Shown here one piece after another: positions 11,282-20,968 of a stretch of DNA of 33,795 nucleotides (position 1 is the first letter of the stretch; each line of letters begins with the position of its first letter). The notes under the pieces are model-generated. The model ran no database searches. It was not told where the DNA came from and worked only from the letters and a program-made list of their open reading frames with translations. This DNA is from Candidatus Paralachnospira caecorum. Its GTDB lineage: Bacteria; Bacillota; Clostridia; Lachnospirales; Lachnospiraceae. The DNA lies in assembly GCA_904379015.1 (NCBI GenBank), contig CAJFHG010000032.1, positions 1-33,795 on the forward strand. Reading direction: 5' to 3'. The translations under genes and the position numbers were made by a program.

Positions 11282-12742
11282 TTATTTGCTCTTTTCCTGA
11301 GCGGCCAGTCTGGCCTTTCTGCTGAACCAGACTCCTTTGCCGGTGACGGGGGAACCGTCTGTCTTAAATACCGCAAAGCCGGTGATGGCATAGATGATCG
11401 CGAATACCGGGCAGAGAATGGGCAGGAAGGAATAGGGAAGCGACTGGAGGGTGGGCACGCCCAGCACGCCGGATGTATAGATGGCGGCCATGGACCAGGG
11501 CACCAGGAATGAGAAAATGGTGCCGCCGTCCTCCAGTGTTCTGGAGAGCACGTAGGGAGCCACATCTGCTTTTTTGTAGGATTCCTTGAAGATCTCACCG
11601 GGAAGCAGGATCGCCACATACTGGCTGGCAGTCAGGATGACGGTCAGCAGGCAGGTAAACAGGGTTGTGAGCACCAGCGGACCGGGCTTTCTGACCAGCG
11701 CTTCCAGTCTGTCGAGGATGGCTGTCAGTACGCCCATTCTCTGCAGCAGCTCTCCGAAGGCAAGGCAGAGCAGAGAGAGGGATACGGTCGTCATCATGCT
11801 GGAAATACCGCCGCGGTTGAACAGGGTGTTCAGCATGTCGTTGGAGAATTCCCCGCTGAATCCGGTTGCCATGGAATTCAGGATTGTTGCGATACTGAAC
11901 TGAGGCTGAGCGAAAAATGCCACAACGATGCCTGCGATGGTTCCGGCCAGCAGAGCCAGGAAGGAGGGAACCTTCTTGACGGCCAGCAGGATCGTCAGGA
12001 CCGGGATCAGCAGCAGGAAGGGAGAAACGTTGAAGGTTTCCGTGATGCCTGCCGAGATAGCCGCAACATTTCCCATATCGGTGCTGGCAGAGCTGTGCTG
12101 GAAGCCCAGGATAAAGTACAGGACTGCCGCAATCAGTGTAGCGGGAACCGTGGTCCACAGCATGGATTTGATATGAAGGAAAATGTCGGTTTCAGCCGCT
12201 GCGGGCGCCATGTTGGTGGTGTCCGAGAACGGGGACATCTTGTCGCCGAAGATGGCGCCGGAGATGACCATGCCGGCGGTCAGGGCAGGATTGATCCCCA
12301 GTCCGCTGCCGATTCCCATAAAGGCCACGCCGAGGGTACCGGCTGCCGTGTAGGAGCTGCCGGTGAAAAAGGATACGATACAGCAGATAATGAAGCCAAC
12401 CAGCAGGAAGTAGGATGGAGACAGGATCTGAAGACCGTAGTAAATAATGGAAGGGACAACGCCGGATACGATCCAGGAGCCCACGACCATGCCGACGCTC
12501 ATCAGGATCAGGATGACCAGGATGGCTTTTCGGCAGCCGGCCAAAATGATCTCCTGAACCTCTTCCATAGAAAAACCGATACACAGGGCGATAATGGCCA
12601 TAGCCACCAGTACCAGGGCGAATACGGTGACGGTGGAGAGTCCCAGCACAGCCAGGCCCACTGCCATGATGGCCACCATGACGAGCAGGGTGAAGAGCGC
12701 CATGGGAAGCCCCATCTTGCCTTTTACTTTTTCTTTACTCAT
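11282..12742 (-). CDS. NhaC-family antiporter-type carrier, probable lysine or related amino-acid transporter
   Basis: A 486-residue membrane protein with about 11-12 hydrophobic helices. Family marks of NhaC-type sodium/proton antiporters are present: GSSYTAAGTLGVAFMGIG, the acidic GAIFGDKMSPFSDTTNMAPA stretch and the late TASQYVAILLPGEIF helix. The ATG follows AAGGAGG and overlaps the hyuB stop as ATGA, so it is the last gene of a three-gene operon. NhaC-family carriers under lysine riboswitches have been predicted to be lysine transporters (LysW). The leader upstream of hyuA reads as such a riboswitch, so lysine or a lysine derivative is a likelier substrate than plain sodium/proton exchange (inference). 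Confidence 0.85.
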   Translation of the reverse strand: MSKEKVKGKMGLPMALFTLLVMVAIMAVGLAVLGLSTVTVFALVLVAMAIIALCIGFSMEEVQEIILAGCRKAILVILILMSVGMVVGSWIVSGVVPSIIYYGLQILSPSYFLLVGFIICCIVSFFTGSSYTAAGTLGVAFMGIGSGLGINPALTAGMVISGAIFGDKMSPFSDTTNMAPAAAETDIFLHIKSMLWTTVPATLIAAVLYFILGFQHSSASTDMGNVAAISAGITETFNVSPFLLLIPVLTILLAVKKVPSFLALLAGTIAGIVVAFFAQPQFSIATILNSMATGFSGEFSNDMLNTLFNRGGISSMMTTVSLSLLCLAFGELLQRMGVLTAILDRLEALVRKPGPLVLTTLFTCLLTVILTASQYVAILLPGEIFKESYKKADVAPYVLSRTLEDGGTIFSFLVPWSMAAIYTSGVLGVPTLQSLPYSFLPILCPVFAIIYAITGFAVFKTDGSPVTGKGVWFSRKARLAAQEKSK

Positions 12743-14409
12743 GCGTTTTCCTCCTTTATTGCAGCCGGATAACAGGTTTTCATGGTTTCCAGGCTGATTT
12801 TCCCTTCTTCATAATCCCGGCGGACCTTTTCAGGATCCTGTTCGGCCGGATCGCCGTAGCCGCCGCCGCCGGCAGAGACAAGTGTCACAGTGTCTCCCGT
12901 CTGGAGCGGAACATTGCGGACCTTGTTCTGTTCATTGATCTTCACGCCGTCGTGGCGGATGTCCAGATAAGAGGTAGCGCCGCCGAGACCGCCCATGAGG
13001 CCCCAGGGCTTCGTGCGGCTCCGCTCCGTGGAAGCGGCGGCCAGCATGGTATCATGGCTCTCATCCAGAATACAGATGGTCCTGCGGATCCCCAGGCCGC
13101 CGCGGTATTTGCCGGGGCCGCCGCTGTCCTCCTCCAGGGCATATTCCTTCACCAGGAGCGGATATTCCATCTCCAGGGATTCAATAGGCAGATTGGATGA
13201 GTTGGTCATATGGACCTGGACCGCATCCAGTCCGTCCTTGTTGTAGCGGGCGCCGTTTCCGCCGCCGATGGTTTCCACATATACGTAAGGCTTGCCGGAG
13301 CGCGCATCCTGTCCGGCAATGCTGAAAAAGGTGACAGCGCCGCATCCGGCCGCGATCACGTTTTCCGGATTGATTTTCGCGAACGCGCCGAAGATCACAT
13401 CAGCCAGACGCTGGGTGGTCGTTTCTCTGTCGAAGGTGGGCGCGGGTTCGCTGGCGCATACGATGGTGCCGGGATCGGCCTTGACTTCGATGCTGTCAAA
13501 AAATCCGGAGTTGGCCGGAATGGTTTTGTCAAGCAGGCATTTCACGGAATAGTAGACGGTGGCCAGAAGAGCGCTGCGGACACAGTTGTAAGGCCCCGTC
13601 ACCTGGGGATGGCTTCCGGAAAAATCAAACAGGATGTGATCGCCGGAAATACATACCTTCACCCGAATCTGGATGTTTTCATTTCCGTTCCCGTCGTCGT
13701 CCAGGATATCCTCGAATGCATATTCTCCGTCGGGCAGGGCCTGAATGGCGGTCCGGGCTTTTTTCTCTCCGTATTTGAGCCATTCCCGGCAGAACTCGAA
13801 ATAAGTGTCCAGTCCGATTTTCCGGCAGAGCTCGATGACCTTGTCGGCGCCGAACTGGTTGGTGATGAGCTGCGCCTGGATGTCGCCCCGGCGTTCTTCC
13901 TTGAGCTGATAATTCAGAAGGATCAGATCATAGATATCCTGATTGAGCTTTCCTTTTTCGTAAAGCTTGACTACGGGAATGCGCAGTCCCTCATCGTAAA
14001 TGGTCGGCCCTCTTCTGGACCGGTCCGCGTGGTGCCCGTTGTTGACTACGAAGGCAATCAGCTTTCCTTCATAGAAAACAGGCTTTACCAGAGCAATGTC
14101 AGGAAGATGGGACCCGCCGCCGCTGTAGGGGTCATTGGCGATGAATACATCCCCGTCATAGATTTCCGATTTGTCCCAGCGCTTCAGCGCTTCCTCCACA
14201 GCTCCGAAGAGGGAACTGAAGTGGATCGGAATATGCTGGGCCAGGGAAAGGACTTTCCCGTCGGCGTCAAAGATGGCCACGGACAGATCCTTCCGTTCTT
14301 TGATGTTGGTGCTGTAGGCTGTTTTGGTCAGGATCACGCCCATCTGCTCCGCGATGGAAAGAAGGCCGTTGCTGATGACCTCAAGGGTGATGGAATTAAT
14401 GCTGCTCAT
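12739..14409 (-). CDS. hyuB: Hydantoinase/oxoprolinase family protein, B subunit
   Basis: A 556-residue HyuB-type subunit. It works with HyuA in ATP-dependent opening of cyclic amides such as 5-oxoproline or N-methylhydantoin; acetone carboxylase subunits are relatives. Seen in sequence: the start SITLEVISNGLLSIAEQMG, the FIANDPYSGGGSHLPDIALVKPVF segment, NNGHHADRSRRGPTIYDEG with clustered His/Asp, and the C-terminal EEDSGGPGKYRGGLGIRR block. All are family hallmarks, with no break. AGGAGG precedes the ATG. It overlaps hyuA by 14 bases and nhaC by 4, so the three proteins are made together. The substrate is not readable from sequence. Confidence 0.93.
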   Translation of the reverse strand: MSSINSITLEVISNGLLSIAEQMGVILTKTAYSTNIKERKDLSVAIFDADGKVLSLAQHIPIHFSSLFGAVEEALKRWDKSEIYDGDVFIANDPYSGGGSHLPDIALVKPVFYEGKLIAFVVNNGHHADRSRRGPTIYDEGLRIPVVKLYEKGKLNQDIYDLILLNYQLKEERRGDIQAQLITNQFGADKVIELCRKIGLDTYFEFCREWLKYGEKKARTAIQALPDGEYAFEDILDDDGNGNENIQIRVKVCISGDHILFDFSGSHPQVTGPYNCVRSALLATVYYSVKCLLDKTIPANSGFFDSIEVKADPGTIVCASEPAPTFDRETTTQRLADVIFGAFAKINPENVIAAGCGAVTFFSIAGQDARSGKPYVYVETIGGGNGARYNKDGLDAVQVHMTNSSNLPIESLEMEYPLLVKEYALEEDSGGPGKYRGGLGIRRTICILDESHDTMLAAASTERSRTKPWGLMGGLGGATSYLDIRHDGVKINEQNKVRNVPLQTGDTVTLVSAGGGGYGDPAEQDPEKVRRDYEEGKISLETMKTCYPAAIKEENA

Positions 14410-16456
14410 CTGCCGTTCCTCCTGTTCTGGTAATGATCATGTTGAAATATTCATCCACTACGGCCTTCTGGTTTTTCAGAACGATGGTGGTGGAATCCAT
14501 CTGCTCGATGATGGCAGGGCCGGTGATCACATTGCCGCAGTGAAGCTTTTCCCTGTCGTAGAGAAGATATTTTTCGCGGCTTCCGTCCTCCATGAGCACC
14601 ATACGGCTTCCGATCAGAGCGCCGTCCGCGCTCTCGCCCACATAGTCCTCCCGTTCAATCTGAGGCTTGCTGATCTGACCGATGGCGGAAAGACCGAAGT
14701 TGACAATCTGAATCTCATCCGCGGAAGAGTAGGAATAAAGCCGCAGGTAGGTCTCCGTGAACCGGTCCATGAGCTTCTCGATGGAATCAATGGTCTTGTC
14801 GAAGGAAACAACGATCTCGTAGTTCTGTCCCTTATAGCGCATGTCAAGATAATATTCAAGCTGCCGGTTTTCCGTCGGGATCTGTTCCTTGTCGAACCAA
14901 AGAGCAGCCTCTTTTTCCAGCCGCCGGTACATATCGGTGATGGCGGAAAAGGGTGTGTGGTTCAGATCCATCACAGTGGTTTGCACAAAGTCGCGGCGCA
15001 TATCTTCTGTGAGCAGGCCGTAGGCGGCCAGGAGGCCGGGGGCCTTGGGGATAATGGCCGTGGACATATTGAGTTCCTCGATGAGCTCAGCCGCGTGAAG
15101 CGGTCCGGCGCCTCCGAAGGCAACCAGGGCAAAATCGGAGGGATTATAGCCCTTTTCCACGGTCACGTTCTTGATTTCCTTGACAATGTTGGAGTTGCCG
15201 ACGGTGATGATGCCCCGGGCAGTCTCCTCCACGTTCATGCCGATCTTTCCGGCCAGCTTTTCCACTGCCTGGAAGGAAAGACTGGAATCGATGGGAAGCT
15301 GTCCGCTCAGCAGCTCTTTGTTGTTCAGATGGCCGAGTACCACCCGCGCGTCAGTGATGGCAGCCTCTGTGCCGCCCCGGGCGTAGCAGGCGGGACCAGG
15401 CTCCGCGCCGGCACTCTGGGGTCCGACCTTCAGGATGCCGCCGGAATCGATCCAGGCGATGCTTCCGCCGCCGGCTCCGATGGTAGAAATATCGATGGAA
15501 GGAATCCGGACCGGGTATCCGCTGATGTTCTTGTCTTTGGAGCTTTCGATGTTCCCGTCCACGATCATGCTGATGTCGGTGCTGGTGCCGCCTACATCAA
15601 TGGTGATCACATTTTTGACGCCGATGAGATTCATCAGGTACTGAACGCCGATGACACCAGCGGCAGGTCCGGAAAGTCCGGTTTTGATGGGATAGGCCGC
15701 CGCCTCGCGGATGGACATGAGACCGCCGTTGGAATGGTTGATATAAACCTTCTTGATGCCGATCTGTTCCAGCGTGTTTCTTAAATTGTCCAGATATTTC
15801 TTGACCTCCGGTCCTACGAAGGAATTCAGCACGGTGCCGCAGAGACGCTCAAATTCGCGGAACTGATTGGAAATCTCGCTGGAGGTGGAAATATAGATCC
15901 CGGGAAGATGCTGTTCGATCAGCGCCTTGACCCGGCTTTCATTTTCCGGATTCAGGTAGGCGTTAAGGAACAGGACGGCCACAGCCTCGGCCTTTTTTTC
16001 CTTCAGCTTTTCAATCAGAGCAAGAATCTCCTCGTCGCTTAAAGCTTCCAGGATCTCTCCTTTGTAATTCATGCGTTCCGTCAGCTCAAAACGCAGATCT
16101 CTGGGGATCAGGACCGGAGCCTTGTCCATCTGCAGATCATAGAGGTCCGGACGTTTCTGACGGCCGATCTCCAGAAGATCCCGGAACCCTTTTGTAGTGA
16201 TCAGCGCGGTGCGGGCGCCCCTTGATTCCAGAATGGCGTTGGTGGCCACGGTGGTTCCATGGATAAAACGGTCCACATCCTCATAATCCAGTCCGTATTT
16301 TTCCACAATTTTCCGGACGCCGCCCACCACGGCCTGGGACTGGTCCTTCAGAGAAGACGGAAGCTTGTAGACCATCAGTTCGCCGGTCGCTTCGTCTATG
16401 GCGCAGATGTCGGTATTGGTGCCGCCCACGTCAACACCGATTCGTATTTTTTTCAC
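14396..16456 (-). CDS. hyuA: Hydantoinase/oxoprolinase family protein, A subunit
   Basis: A 686-residue HyuA-type ATP-binding subunit of the ASKHA fold. Two phosphate loops are visible, RIGVDVGGTNTDICAID at the N-terminus and ITIDVGGTSTDISMI near residue 295. HGTTVATNAILESRGARTALITT and the FGGAGPLHAAELIEEL block are also present. It activates the cyclic substrate with ATP for ring opening with HyuB. The start is a GTG at 16456 behind GAGAGGAGA. It is the first gene of the operon and sits behind a leader of about 380 nt carrying a lysine-type aptamer and a terminator, so expression is probably switched off by lysine. Known relatives act on oxoproline, hydantoins or acetone. Confidence 0.94.
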   Translation of the reverse strand: MKKIRIGVDVGGTNTDICAIDEATGELMVYKLPSSLKDQSQAVVGGVRKIVEKYGLDYEDVDRFIHGTTVATNAILESRGARTALITTKGFRDLLEIGRQKRPDLYDLQMDKAPVLIPRDLRFELTERMNYKGEILEALSDEEILALIEKLKEKKAEAVAVLFLNAYLNPENESRVKALIEQHLPGIYISTSSEISNQFREFERLCGTVLNSFVGPEVKKYLDNLRNTLEQIGIKKVYINHSNGGLMSIREAAAYPIKTGLSGPAAGVIGVQYLMNLIGVKNVITIDVGGTSTDISMIVDGNIESSKDKNISGYPVRIPSIDISTIGAGGGSIAWIDSGGILKVGPQSAGAEPGPACYARGGTEAAITDARVVLGHLNNKELLSGQLPIDSSLSFQAVEKLAGKIGMNVEETARGIITVGNSNIVKEIKNVTVEKGYNPSDFALVAFGGAGPLHAAELIEELNMSTAIIPKAPGLLAAYGLLTEDMRRDFVQTTVMDLNHTPFSAITDMYRRLEKEAALWFDKEQIPTENRQLEYYLDMRYKGQNYEIVVSFDKTIDSIEKLMDRFTETYLRLYSYSSADEIQIVNFGLSAIGQISKPQIEREDYVGESADGALIGSRMVLMEDGSREKYLLYDREKLHCGNVITGPAIIEQMDSTTIVLKNQKAVVDEYFNMIITRTGGTADEQH

Positions 16457-16540
16457 GGTAGCATTCTCCTCTCATGTTGTATCGTTTTTCCGTCATGACA
16501 GACCGGAAATGTGCAGATAAAAGTGCGGATGACTGTGAAT

Positions 16541-16575
16541 AAAAAAACCATGTGCGGTGGTATATGCGCACATGG
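16541..16575 (-). terminator. Intrinsic terminator in the hyuA leader (riboswitch expression platform)
   Basis: Read on the minus strand, CCATGTGCG (16575-16567) pairs perfectly with CGCACATGG (16556-16548) and is followed by seven T (16547-16541). It lies after the aptamer and 85 bases before the hyuA GTG, where a transcriptional riboswitch would place its off-switch. Confidence 0.88.
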
Positions 16576-16686
16576 CTGTCGATCCGTTTTATTCTGATTA
16601 CGTTCCGGCTGCGTTACCCGGAAGCTGATTTCCTTGTCCTTTTGTATGATGTTGTTTTTCTGTCGTCCAATTCAATCCTGCCTCCA

Positions 16687-16836
16687 GGTATAGATAGTGC
16701 TCTTCTGGAATTTGGCGGATCCCAGAAACAGTCTTACACCTGTTCGATGTAAGCCCAAGCAGATATGCTTTCGGCGGATTTCCCTTTCCCGGCTGTGATA
16801 ACCGGTACTGATGATTTCCGCGCCCCTATATATACC
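16687..16836 (-). ncRNA. Lysine riboswitch (L box) aptamer upstream of hyuA-hyuB-nhaC
   Basis: On the minus strand the outer helix P1 is GGTATATATAG (16836-16826) with CTATCTATACC (16697-16687), one mismatch. Between them, in order, lie L-box landmarks: GGGGCGCGG, ATCATCAGTA, GGGAAAGGGA, CCGCCGAAAGC, TGCTTGGG, AGACTGT and AGAGCACTATC. These follow the order and spacing of lysC-type leaders. A helix CTTACATC/GGTGTAAG and a helix TTCTGG/CCAGAA fit P4 and P5. The third arm is very short. With the promoter just upstream and an intrinsic terminator downstream, lysine binding should stop transcription before hyuA. The 529-base gap between hyuA and rpsT is filled by this leader, its promoter and two terminators; short open frames there look accidental. 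Confidence 0.87.
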
Positions 16837-16842
16837 ATGGTT

Positions 16843-16871
16843 ATTATAGCCAATGGAGAAATCAAAGTCAA
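16843..16871 (-). promoter_or_regulatory. Sigma-A promoter of the riboswitch-hyuA-hyuB-nhaC transcript
   Basis: On the minus strand TTGACT (16871-16866) and a perfect TATAAT (16848-16843) are 17 bases apart. The predicted start, about 16836, falls at the first bases of the aptamer's outer helix. Confidence 0.85.
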
Positions 16872-19877: not shown

Positions 19878-19906
19878 TTGATTTCTCCAGAAAAAACGGT
19901 TATAAT
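19878..19906 (+). promoter_or_regulatory. Sigma-A promoter of the cobalamin riboswitch-cbiMNQO transcript
   Basis: TTGATT (19878-19883) and a perfect TATAAT (19901-19906) are 17 bases apart, about 24 bases before the first helix of the riboswitch. Confidence 0.8.
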
Positions 19907-19929
19907 CGGGAACAACAGCAGTGATAATA

Positions 19930-20079
19930 CATTCAGAGACGAGGAAGCAGGTGAGAATCCTGCGCAATGCCCGTTGCTGTATGAGTCGAGCGGCGGCCCG
20001 GTATGCCACTGTGCACGGATGCATGGGAAGGCGGCGCTGCGGCGTATGAGACTTGAGCCAGAATATTCAGCTCTGAATG
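19930..20079 (+). ncRNA. Cobalamin (B12) riboswitch aptamer upstream of cbiMNQO
   Basis: The closing helix is CATTCAGAG (19930-19938) with CTCTGAATG (20071-20079), a perfect 9 bp. Between them, in order, are the cobalamin-riboswitch landmarks GGTGAGAATCCTGCGCAA, TGCCCG, CTGTATGAGTCG, TATGCCACTG, GGGAAGGCGGCGCT and the B12-box-like GAGCCAGAATATTCAGC. Bound cobalamin should lower expression of the cobalt transporter behind it. The 382-base stretch between spoIIP and cbiM holds a hairpin, the promoter, this aptamer and a translation-control helix; short open frames there look accidental. Confidence 0.88.
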
Positions 20080-20129
20080 GATTTGAAAGGTTACGGGGAC
20101 ATGACCGGAAGAATGAGAAGAAGCAGATA

Positions 20130-20198
20130 CTTTCTTTTTCTGCTGGACTCCTGTATTCCACCTGTATGCTGCAGGCATGTACCGAAAGAAAAAGAAAG
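20130..20198 (+). promoter_or_regulatory. Ribosome-binding-site-sequestering helix of the cobalamin riboswitch
   Basis: CTTTCTTTTTCT (20130-20141) is perfectly complementary to AGAAAAAGAAAG (20187-20198). The 3' arm overlaps the AAAGGA that serves the cbiM ATG at 20210. This suggests control at translation initiation, since no terminator with a T tract is seen between aptamer and gene. Confidence 0.65.
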
Positions 20199-20209
20199 GA
20201 AAATGGAAT

Positions 20210-20968
20210 ATGTCTAAAAAAGAAATCAGATTTCTGAAAACAGTCACTGCGGCCGCGGTTCTGCTGGCGGCTGCGCCTGTTTCCAACGCGATGCACATCA
20301 TGGAGGGCTATCTTCCGGGAGGTTATTGTATTGCCTGGGGAGTGGTCTGTCTGCCGTTTTTGATCACGGGTTTTCTGTCGCTGAAAAAGAGAATACAGTC
20401 CAACAGGAAGAGCCTGACGCTGATCGCCATGTCCGGAGCTTTTATTTTCGTGATTTCCTCGCTGAAGATCCCTTCTCTGTCGGGCAGCTGTTCCCATATG
20501 ACGGGAACCGGACTGGGAGCCATTCTGTTCGGACCGGCTGCAGTCAGCGTGCTGGGGATCATTGTGCTGATCTTTCAGGCTCTTTTGCTGGCTCATGGCG
20601 GCGTGACCACACTGGGAGCCAATACCTTTTCCATGGCCATCGCGGGACCGCTTGTGTCCTTCGGCGTTTACCGTCTCTGCAGGAGGGCGAAGGTGAATCA
20701 GAAGGTTGGCGTGTTTCTGGCGGCTTTTCTGGGCGATATTTTTACCTACTGCGTGACGAGCGTTCAGCTTGCCCTTGCCCATCCCTCAGAAAACGGAGGA
20801 ATCGCGGCTTCGGCAGTCAAATTCCTCGGCGTTTTCGCGCCGACCCAGCTGCCCCTTGCCGTCATTGAAGGACTTCTGACCGTTATCATTGTCATCGGCC
20901 TGTCTTCCTACGCGGGACCGGAACTGAAAGCAGTCGGATTTGATAAAGGAGGAAAGGCTCATGAGTAA
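20210..20968 (+). CDS. cbiM: Cobalt ECF transporter, substrate-capture component CbiM
   Basis: CbiM is the membrane S-component that captures Co2+ for cobalamin synthesis. The product begins with a cleavable signal sequence ending VSNA, followed by MHIMEGYLP. In this family the N-terminus freed by cleavage, with its His, forms the metal site. About six further helices follow, with SGSCSHMTGTGLGAILFGP (His in the second site), LLLAHGGVTTLGAN and FAPTQLPLAVIEGLLTVI. I chose the ATG at 20210, behind AAAGGA; an upstream in-frame ATG at 20177 would lie in the riboswitch control helix. It overlaps cbiN by 8 bases. Regulation by the cobalamin riboswitch fits a cobalt importer rather than a nickel one. 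Confidence 0.94.
   Translation: MSKKEIRFLKTVTAAAVLLAAAPVSNAMHIMEGYLPGGYCIAWGVVCLPFLITGFLSLKKRIQSNRKSLTLIAMSGAFIFVISSLKIPSLSGSCSHMTGTGLGAILFGPAAVSVLGIIVLIFQALLLAHGGVTTLGANTFSMAIAGPLVSFGVYRLCRRAKVNQKVGVFLAAFLGDIFTYCVTSVQLALAHPSENGGIAASAVKFLGVFAPTQLPLAVIEGLLTVIIVIGLSSYAGPELKAVGFDKGGKAHE

Follow-up and report, generated by a model that had tools for sequence, protein, structure and literature searches.

Lysine riboswitches, also called L-box elements, are reported to act as OFF switches in B. subtilis and E. coli (PMC11477304). In C. difficile one is reported before yfcC and a gene for an M20D amidohydrolase (CD3100-3099; PMC11477304), which puts a putative basic amino acid carrier and an amide hydrolase behind the same switch. 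By analogy this is the nearest reported counterpart of, and a precedent for, the locus described here: a lysine riboswitch leading the genes hyuA, hyuB and nhaC in a 33,795-nucleotide stretch of Candidatus Paralachnospira caecorum (Lachnospiraceae; contig CAJFHG010000032.1, assembly GCA_904379015.1). The whole of that stretch is called the window, and the positions given for the operon and its leader are on the minus strand. The plan is the same as in C. difficile; the difference is that M20D is not an ATP-dependent cyclic-amide hydrolase, and that the carrier is another one.

The enzyme and the carrier have described relatives too. CapAB of Pseudomonas jessenii (PMC8453981, PMC6061476) is, like HyuAB, a two-subunit ATP-dependent ring opener, and its hydrolysis of caprolactam needs CapA D11 and D295 and CapB D41, H99, D102 and H124 (PMC8453981). 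That paper also refers to a Cryptococcus enzyme that hydrolyses L-alpha-amino-epsilon-caprolactam, with no mention of ATP. Hydrolysis of the lysine lactam is therefore known chemistry, reported without ATP. N-methylhydantoinase (7hk5) and 5-oxoprolinase share their Pfam families with HyuAB; 7hk5 is one fused chain of 1288 residues, whereas HyuA and HyuB are separate here. The Pseudomonas hydantoinase set, as given in PMC8453981, includes hyuC, which is absent from this operon. LysW, a lysine carrier of the NhaC superfamily (COG1757; PMC5584792), has PF03553 and is found downstream of lysine riboswitches, as is the NhaC of this locus.

The pairing of a lysine riboswitch with a hydantoinase or oxoprolinase was not found described in open-licence full text, in agreement with the initial annotation, which names no described system of this kind. 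The surveys PMC5584792 and PMC3766115 have neither "hydantoin" nor "oxoprolin" in their main text. In the part of PMC11938683 that mentions them, hyuA (in an E. coli gene list) and the lysine riboswitch (in a reference title) co-occur without a link.

The best reading of the locus, though a tentative one, is a hyuA-hyuB-nhaC operon for cyclic-amide salvage that lysine switches off. NhaC would import a cyclic amide derived from a basic amino acid, whose ring HyuAB would open at the expense of ATP; under lysine shortage this would supply lysine or a diamino acid akin to it. Such recovery of lysine, or of a compound close to it, from a ring is equally tentative.

The aptamer (16687..16836) matches RF00168 over its full length, model positions 1-182 of 182, at 77.1 bits and E 1.1e-18 (cmscan; the gathering score is 30), and the match is recovered also in a genome-wide search. 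Its helices P1-P5 form a five-way junction. The initial annotation had called an L-box from landmarks between a matched outer helix, a promoter and a T7-tailed terminator, and had proposed the comparison with RF00168; all of these parts are borne out. The strands of P1, GGUAUAUAUAG and CUAUCUAUACC, have a single mismatch. The sigma-70-type promoter TTGACT-17-TATAAT (16843..16871) has 11 of 12 consensus matches. The whole scan gives 9 promoter-like sites, against 6.3 (standard deviation 2.3) in shuffles, so the promoter call rests on score and position and not on count. The intrinsic terminator (16541..16575), with its arms CCAUGUGCG and CGCACAUGG, the loop between them and seven T's (U7 in the RNA), can be read directly from the sequence. 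Its loop of 10 nucleotides lies outside the range of the terminator scan (loops of 3-8), which is why it is not listed there. Between aptamer and terminator runs a linker (16576..16686). The described lysine riboswitch likewise has the five-helix aptamer, the pocket motifs GCCGAA and ACUGU, a GAA(C/U)A pentaloop in L4, a promoter and an intrinsic terminator, and the leader here is built for attenuation, as had been proposed. Two further lysine riboswitches are found in the source genome, one by dapA and one by a gene for an amino-acid ABC substrate-binding protein. The latter (L002, G000:C1) is the third in this genome; the other ten genomes of the genus show at most two.

Transcriptional OFF control by lysine is considered likely, on the basis of folding models. 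Without lysine, the linker would act as anti-P1 and sequester the 3' strand of P1, while the 5' strand would pair with the terminator loop, CAUAUACCAC, to which it is complementary, or with the terminator arm, and transcription would read through. With lysine bound, P1 would close, the terminator would fold and the operon would fall silent. This predicted direction is the one reported for B. subtilis and E. coli; the proposed antiterminator, the P1 5' strand against the terminator loop, is different here. Each of the seven hyuA leaders found in the genus was folded without ligand up to the end of the terminator loop, which gives a thermodynamic prediction. In all seven unfinished leaders P1 itself hardly forms (0.00-0.24 expected); its 5' strand is taken up by the loop or the 5' arm of the terminator (7.7-10.7 expected base pairs) and its 3' strand by the linker (6.9-14.8). 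The duplex of P1 5' strand and terminator loop is stronger than every other tested leader window in six of the seven, and shuffled terminator loops are equally strong in 10-63 of 2000 trials (six leaders).

Behind the leader, hyuA (14396..16456; GTG start; PF01968, PF05378, PF19278) encodes the ATP-binding subunit of an ATP-dependent cyclic-amide hydrolase, hyuB (12739..14409; PF02538 at 580.5 bits) the metal-binding ring-opening subunit, and nhaC (11282..12742) a carrier of the Na+/H+-antiporter family. All three identities are backed by both Pfam and NCBIfam, and hyuA and hyuB are indeed the first genes behind the riboswitch, as initially annotated. Overlaps of 14 bp between hyuA and hyuB and of 4 bp between hyuB and nhaC make it probable that one riboswitch-led transcript carries all three genes. 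The span first given for the system, 14396-16871, takes in the leader and hyuA; the operon extends further, to 11282.

The link between riboswitch and hyuAB is conserved and not an accident of one genome. In a genus sample of 11 genomes, the source genome (G000) included, hyuA is present in seven, always with a riboswitch 99-290 nucleotides upstream and always with hyuA and hyuB first behind it. RF00168 scores in the six other hyuA leaders are 65.8-74.1 bits. All seven genomes also have an nhaC ortholog, with 73-91% identity in the six others. Four genomes lack hyuA, two of them being 80-84% complete. NhaC relatives of 36-38% identity are present in three of the four and missing from the other. 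Each of the four has one lysine riboswitch, of canonical size, and a canonical lysine riboswitch of at least 100 bits is found in 11 of 11 genomes.

HyuA and HyuB belong over their full length to the hydantoinase/oxoprolinase families, with Pfam scores over the cut-offs. The best NCBIfam matches are the caprolactamase equivalog models CapA (NF050156, 543.5 bits) for HyuA and CapB (NF050157, 296.5 bits) for HyuB, both under the equivalog cut-off of 1000. Among solved structures the N-methylhydantoinase 7hk5 matches best (HyuA 499 bits, HyuB 297 bits), and the caprolactamase 6yra gives 377 bits for HyuA and 222 bits for HyuB. Aligned by eye, the six residues that CapAB needs are identical in HyuA and HyuB, and the metal ligands of HyuB line up as well. 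Opposite Leu38, a pocket residue of CapB, HyuB has Glu, and so does N-methylhydantoinase, which means that the caprolactamase pocket is not simply carried over. Together with the low scores, the regulation and the host, this sets HyuAB apart from CapAB. By family membership HyuAB is an ATP-dependent cyclic-amide hydrolase, and the riboswitch context suggests a putative substrate class.

The initial annotation placed the third gene in the NhaC family, among carriers predicted to move lysine. The family holds (PF03553; TIGR00931 at 428.8 bits, over the cut-off of 370), and the second NCBIfam match is ArcD (NF052307, 322.2 bits, below its cut-off of 650). It is not the riboswitch-linked LysW carrier. 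Compared with six riboswitch-adjacent LysW-type open reading frames (ORFs) from a class sample, NhaC gives at best 30.4 bits (E 6.5e-4, over 92 residues). PF03553 was confirmed in three of these ORFs, and the same number, when scanned, had no TIGR00931 match; the ORFs are cut at locus ends in both comparisons. NhaC as LysW was rejected on these grounds, and it belongs to a different branch. It is 55-59% identical to the NhaC proteins of hyuAB operons in two relatives in which no lysine riboswitch was detected, and because of this NhaC looks like the partner of HyuAB.

The hyu aptamers form a compact group. The seven, aligned at 142-159 nucleotides, all keep P1-P5. Pairing is held in 97.6% of 210 cells and the covariation score is 0.260, values reached in 0 of 500 shuffles each. 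Two-sided changes occur at 7 of 30 pairs (3 of 500 shuffles as high), with none in P2, and the number of further pair types is not above shuffles (495 of 500 as high). When partners are slid by 1-3 columns, pairing falls to 31-48%.

What differs from the described lysine riboswitch, apart from the genes controlled and the proposed antiterminator, is the loops, too small for L2-L3 kissing pairs, and the A10G change. A six-pair L2-L3 kissing loop is called essential, and A10 is listed as highly conserved, in PMC3764141. By eye, P2b of the hyu aptamers has 2-6 pairs under small loops (such as UUCG, GGAA or GGGA) and P3 has 4-6 pairs, and these loops, as read from the sequence, leave no room for a six-pair kissing interaction. 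The kissing loop and the P2 turn are both missing; the RF00168 match requires neither. A rough parser puts the P2b region at 5-22 nucleotides, against 38 in the 12 other aptamers of the genus; its limits broke down in L138, L141 and L148, ended too early in G009 and G005 and overran P3 in several. With the same parser, no residual kissing complementarity between P2b and P3 stands out, the longest run being 2-4 nucleotides in hyu aptamers against 5 in the others of the genus; four class aptamers of normal size also give a run of just 4.

J1/2 reads GGGG in all seven hyu aptamers and GAGG in all 30 comparison aptamers (12 genus, 18 class). The changed position is taken to be A10, by mapping onto the T. 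maritima sequence; A10 is thus G in 7/7 hyu aptamers and in 0/30 of the others. J5/1 reads AGCA in place of the usual AGNG. AGCA is also found in L140, and the same final A in L141. The pocket marks GCCGAA, ACUGU and the AG of J5/1 are kept in all seven; as L4 loop, six have GAACA and the seventh GAAUA.

Compact aptamers are also seen elsewhere in Clostridia, ahead of lysC (L135) and lysA (L140, L149), and a wider compact subtype of the lysine aptamer may exist. Compactness was therefore dropped as a mark specific to hyu leaders, and alone it is no argument for another ligand. The class loci come from a search with model R1, which matched 50 of 391 class genomes; 18 loci, drawn from the best matches, were readable (L144, a cut locus with wrong coordinates, was left out of both the locus readings and the aptamer comparisons). 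Genes for lysine synthesis or amino-acid import lie downstream in 17 of the 18 and one is unclear, with gene names assigned by eye.

The initial annotation had suggested a survey for lysine riboswitches ahead of hyuAB in other genomes. Within the genus the result is seven out of seven; at the loci outside it none was detected. Of the 299 genomes in a family sample, 15 reach E 1e-40 or better for HyuA; 13 of these lie outside the genus and contribute 16 loci at 34-45% identity. None of the 16 shows a lysine riboswitch, with L021 uninformative as that locus ends 6 nucleotides upstream of the match. Lysine riboswitches as such are found in 232 of the 299. The pair was not found in six class loci or the G774 region either. 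Of 574 hyuA loci on genome contigs, the best 80 were scanned with R1, 12 of them with Rfam as well, and no riboswitch was found, which does not imply absence of the pair beyond these; as controls, both other lysine riboswitches of the source genome were found, the weaker at E 0.0035. An order sample has HyuA at E 1e-150 in 3 of 392 genomes and no new ortholog over 44%, four genomes of G774's family contain no further ortholog, and a plasmid search for the operon gave no match.

Four HyuA orthologs with 63-67% identity were found outside the genus: L055 (Oscillospiraceae, goat cecum), L056 (Clostridiales RUG141, presumably from rumen, going by the RUG prefix), L057 (Clostridia, goat rumen) and G774. 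No lysine riboswitch was found at any of them by Rfam and/or R1 scans. In each of them a divergent LysR-type ORF directly precedes hyuA (by Pfam for L055, by eye for the others). In a tree of 34 HyuA proteins the seven riboswitch members and the four LysR members are sister groups, each with support of 100/99 and joined at 100/100. Behind hyuAB, nhaC is present in L055 and L056 and not in L057 and G774, which makes 9 of the 11 members of this clade. Enzyme and carrier thus also occur as a set outside lysine control.

Next after nhaC in both L055 and L056 is an alanine-dehydrogenase-like gene. In L056 (8278-11662; L181 7223-9534) an ornithine-racemase-like gene comes after that, at 284.6 bits against a cut-off of 480. 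The combination of ornithine racemase, nhaC and Clostridium was not found described in open-licence full text. A 66% relative of the dehydrogenase-like gene lies at a distance from hyuAB in the source genome (L180 8399-9601; G000:C2:50422-51582), and all nine genus genomes searched have such a relative. The neighbours hint at amino-acid metabolism and not at a specific substrate, since in G1016 the dehydrogenase-like gene adjoins an alanine racemase that scores over its cut-off.

Several observations weigh against salvage of lysine under lysine control. The role of the enzyme need not be lysine supply, because its four nearest relatives pair it with a LysR-type gene and no riboswitch. The operon is probably not the sole source of lysine either, because lysA-like genes are present in 11 of 11 genus genomes, all scoring under the 297.9-bit cut-off of TIGR01048; the cells seem able to make lysine independently of the operon, and the idea that hyuAB fills a lysine auxotrophy was rejected for this reason. 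HyuA and HyuB fall outside the caprolactamase equivalogs, with CapA at roughly half and CapB at roughly a third of the cut-off. Lysine affinity could be lower or changed, because A10 is G and the kissing loop has no room. The carrier may be dispensable, because in G005 (L157 12568-14022) an in-frame stop divides nhaC into two ORFs, with riboswitch, hyuA and hyuB intact. The G002 leader lacks the loop complementarity (1397 of 2000 shuffles are as strong), and its P1 5' strand pairs with the terminator arm instead. Finally, the finished ligand-free leader folds the terminator in 7 of 7 (6.8-11.0 expected pairs), with P1 mostly open in six. Switching must therefore be decided co-transcriptionally.

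The strongest competing explanation, itself doubtful, is that HyuAB is an ordinary hydantoinase, 5-oxoprolinase or other lactamase used for general scavenging of nitrogen or amino acids, with lysine just signalling amino-acid plenty in this genus. The LysR-type genes of the relatives fit this, as does N-methylhydantoinase as the top solved structure, and the alanine-dehydrogenase-like gene in two relatives and the racemase-like gene in one resemble amino-acid breakdown. However, the operon has no N-carbamoyl amidase, and RF00168 aptamers usually sit on genes for lysine synthesis or putative import, as in the 17 class loci above. About as doubtful is a specific version of the salvage reading, in which HyuAB would use ATP to open a lactam ring derived from lysine or ornithine, alpha-amino-epsilon-caprolactam being one example, in an undescribed lysine salvage route, and the new aptamer subtype, with A10G and no kissing loop, may discriminate lysine from its lactam.

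Carriers are commonly under lysine riboswitch control. The riboswitch might thus serve NhaC, moving lysine or another basic amino acid, with hyuAB a passenger of unrelated role. A LysW-type NhaC is next in 6 of the 18 readable class loci (by eye, three with confirmed PF03553), and ArcD is the second NCBIfam match of the NhaC here. Yet hyuA and hyuB come first in all seven genomes, NhaC is far from LysW, it comes after hyuAB in L055 and L056, neither with a detected lysine riboswitch, and G005 keeps the riboswitch and hyuAB whole with nhaC split. Of the initial annotation's own alternative, that hyuAB merely shares the carrier's transcript, the shared transcript is probable; the distance from LysW and the position of hyuAB speak against the rest, and this explanation is unlikely. 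Very unlikely is that the aptamer has drifted to another ligand, for instance a lactam or another diamino acid on which the operon itself acts. The change of A10 to G in 7/7 against 0/30, the AGCA of J5/1 and the missing room for a kissing loop would suit it. The other pocket marks checked are kept, though, compact aptamers precede lysC and lysA, the final A of J5/1 is common to L140 and L141, and a paired A-to-G and G-to-A change could be structurally neutral. The salvage operon remains the best reading.

Around the operon, rpsT is the upstream neighbour in the window, and holA is the next gene past nhaC, in convergent orientation. In G001, G002 and G007 (L154, L155, L158) an aldo/keto-reductase-like gene lies directly upstream of the riboswitch cassette, confirmed by Pfam with a 4Fe-4S domain in L154 and read by eye in L155 and L158. 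The window also has a cobalamin riboswitch (RF00174, 68.2 bits, 19900-20088 (+)) ahead of cbiM (20177-20968), which is probably a B12-controlled cobalt carrier.

Lysine riboswitches help to name genes, as the genes they control usually concern lysine. The HyuAB family is large and few of its substrates are established, and here the switch gives a concrete substrate class. The hyu aptamer, in turn, suggests that natural lysine aptamers can do without both the kissing loop and a highly conserved A beside the pocket, and this subtype can be tested on RNAs of about 145 nucleotides.

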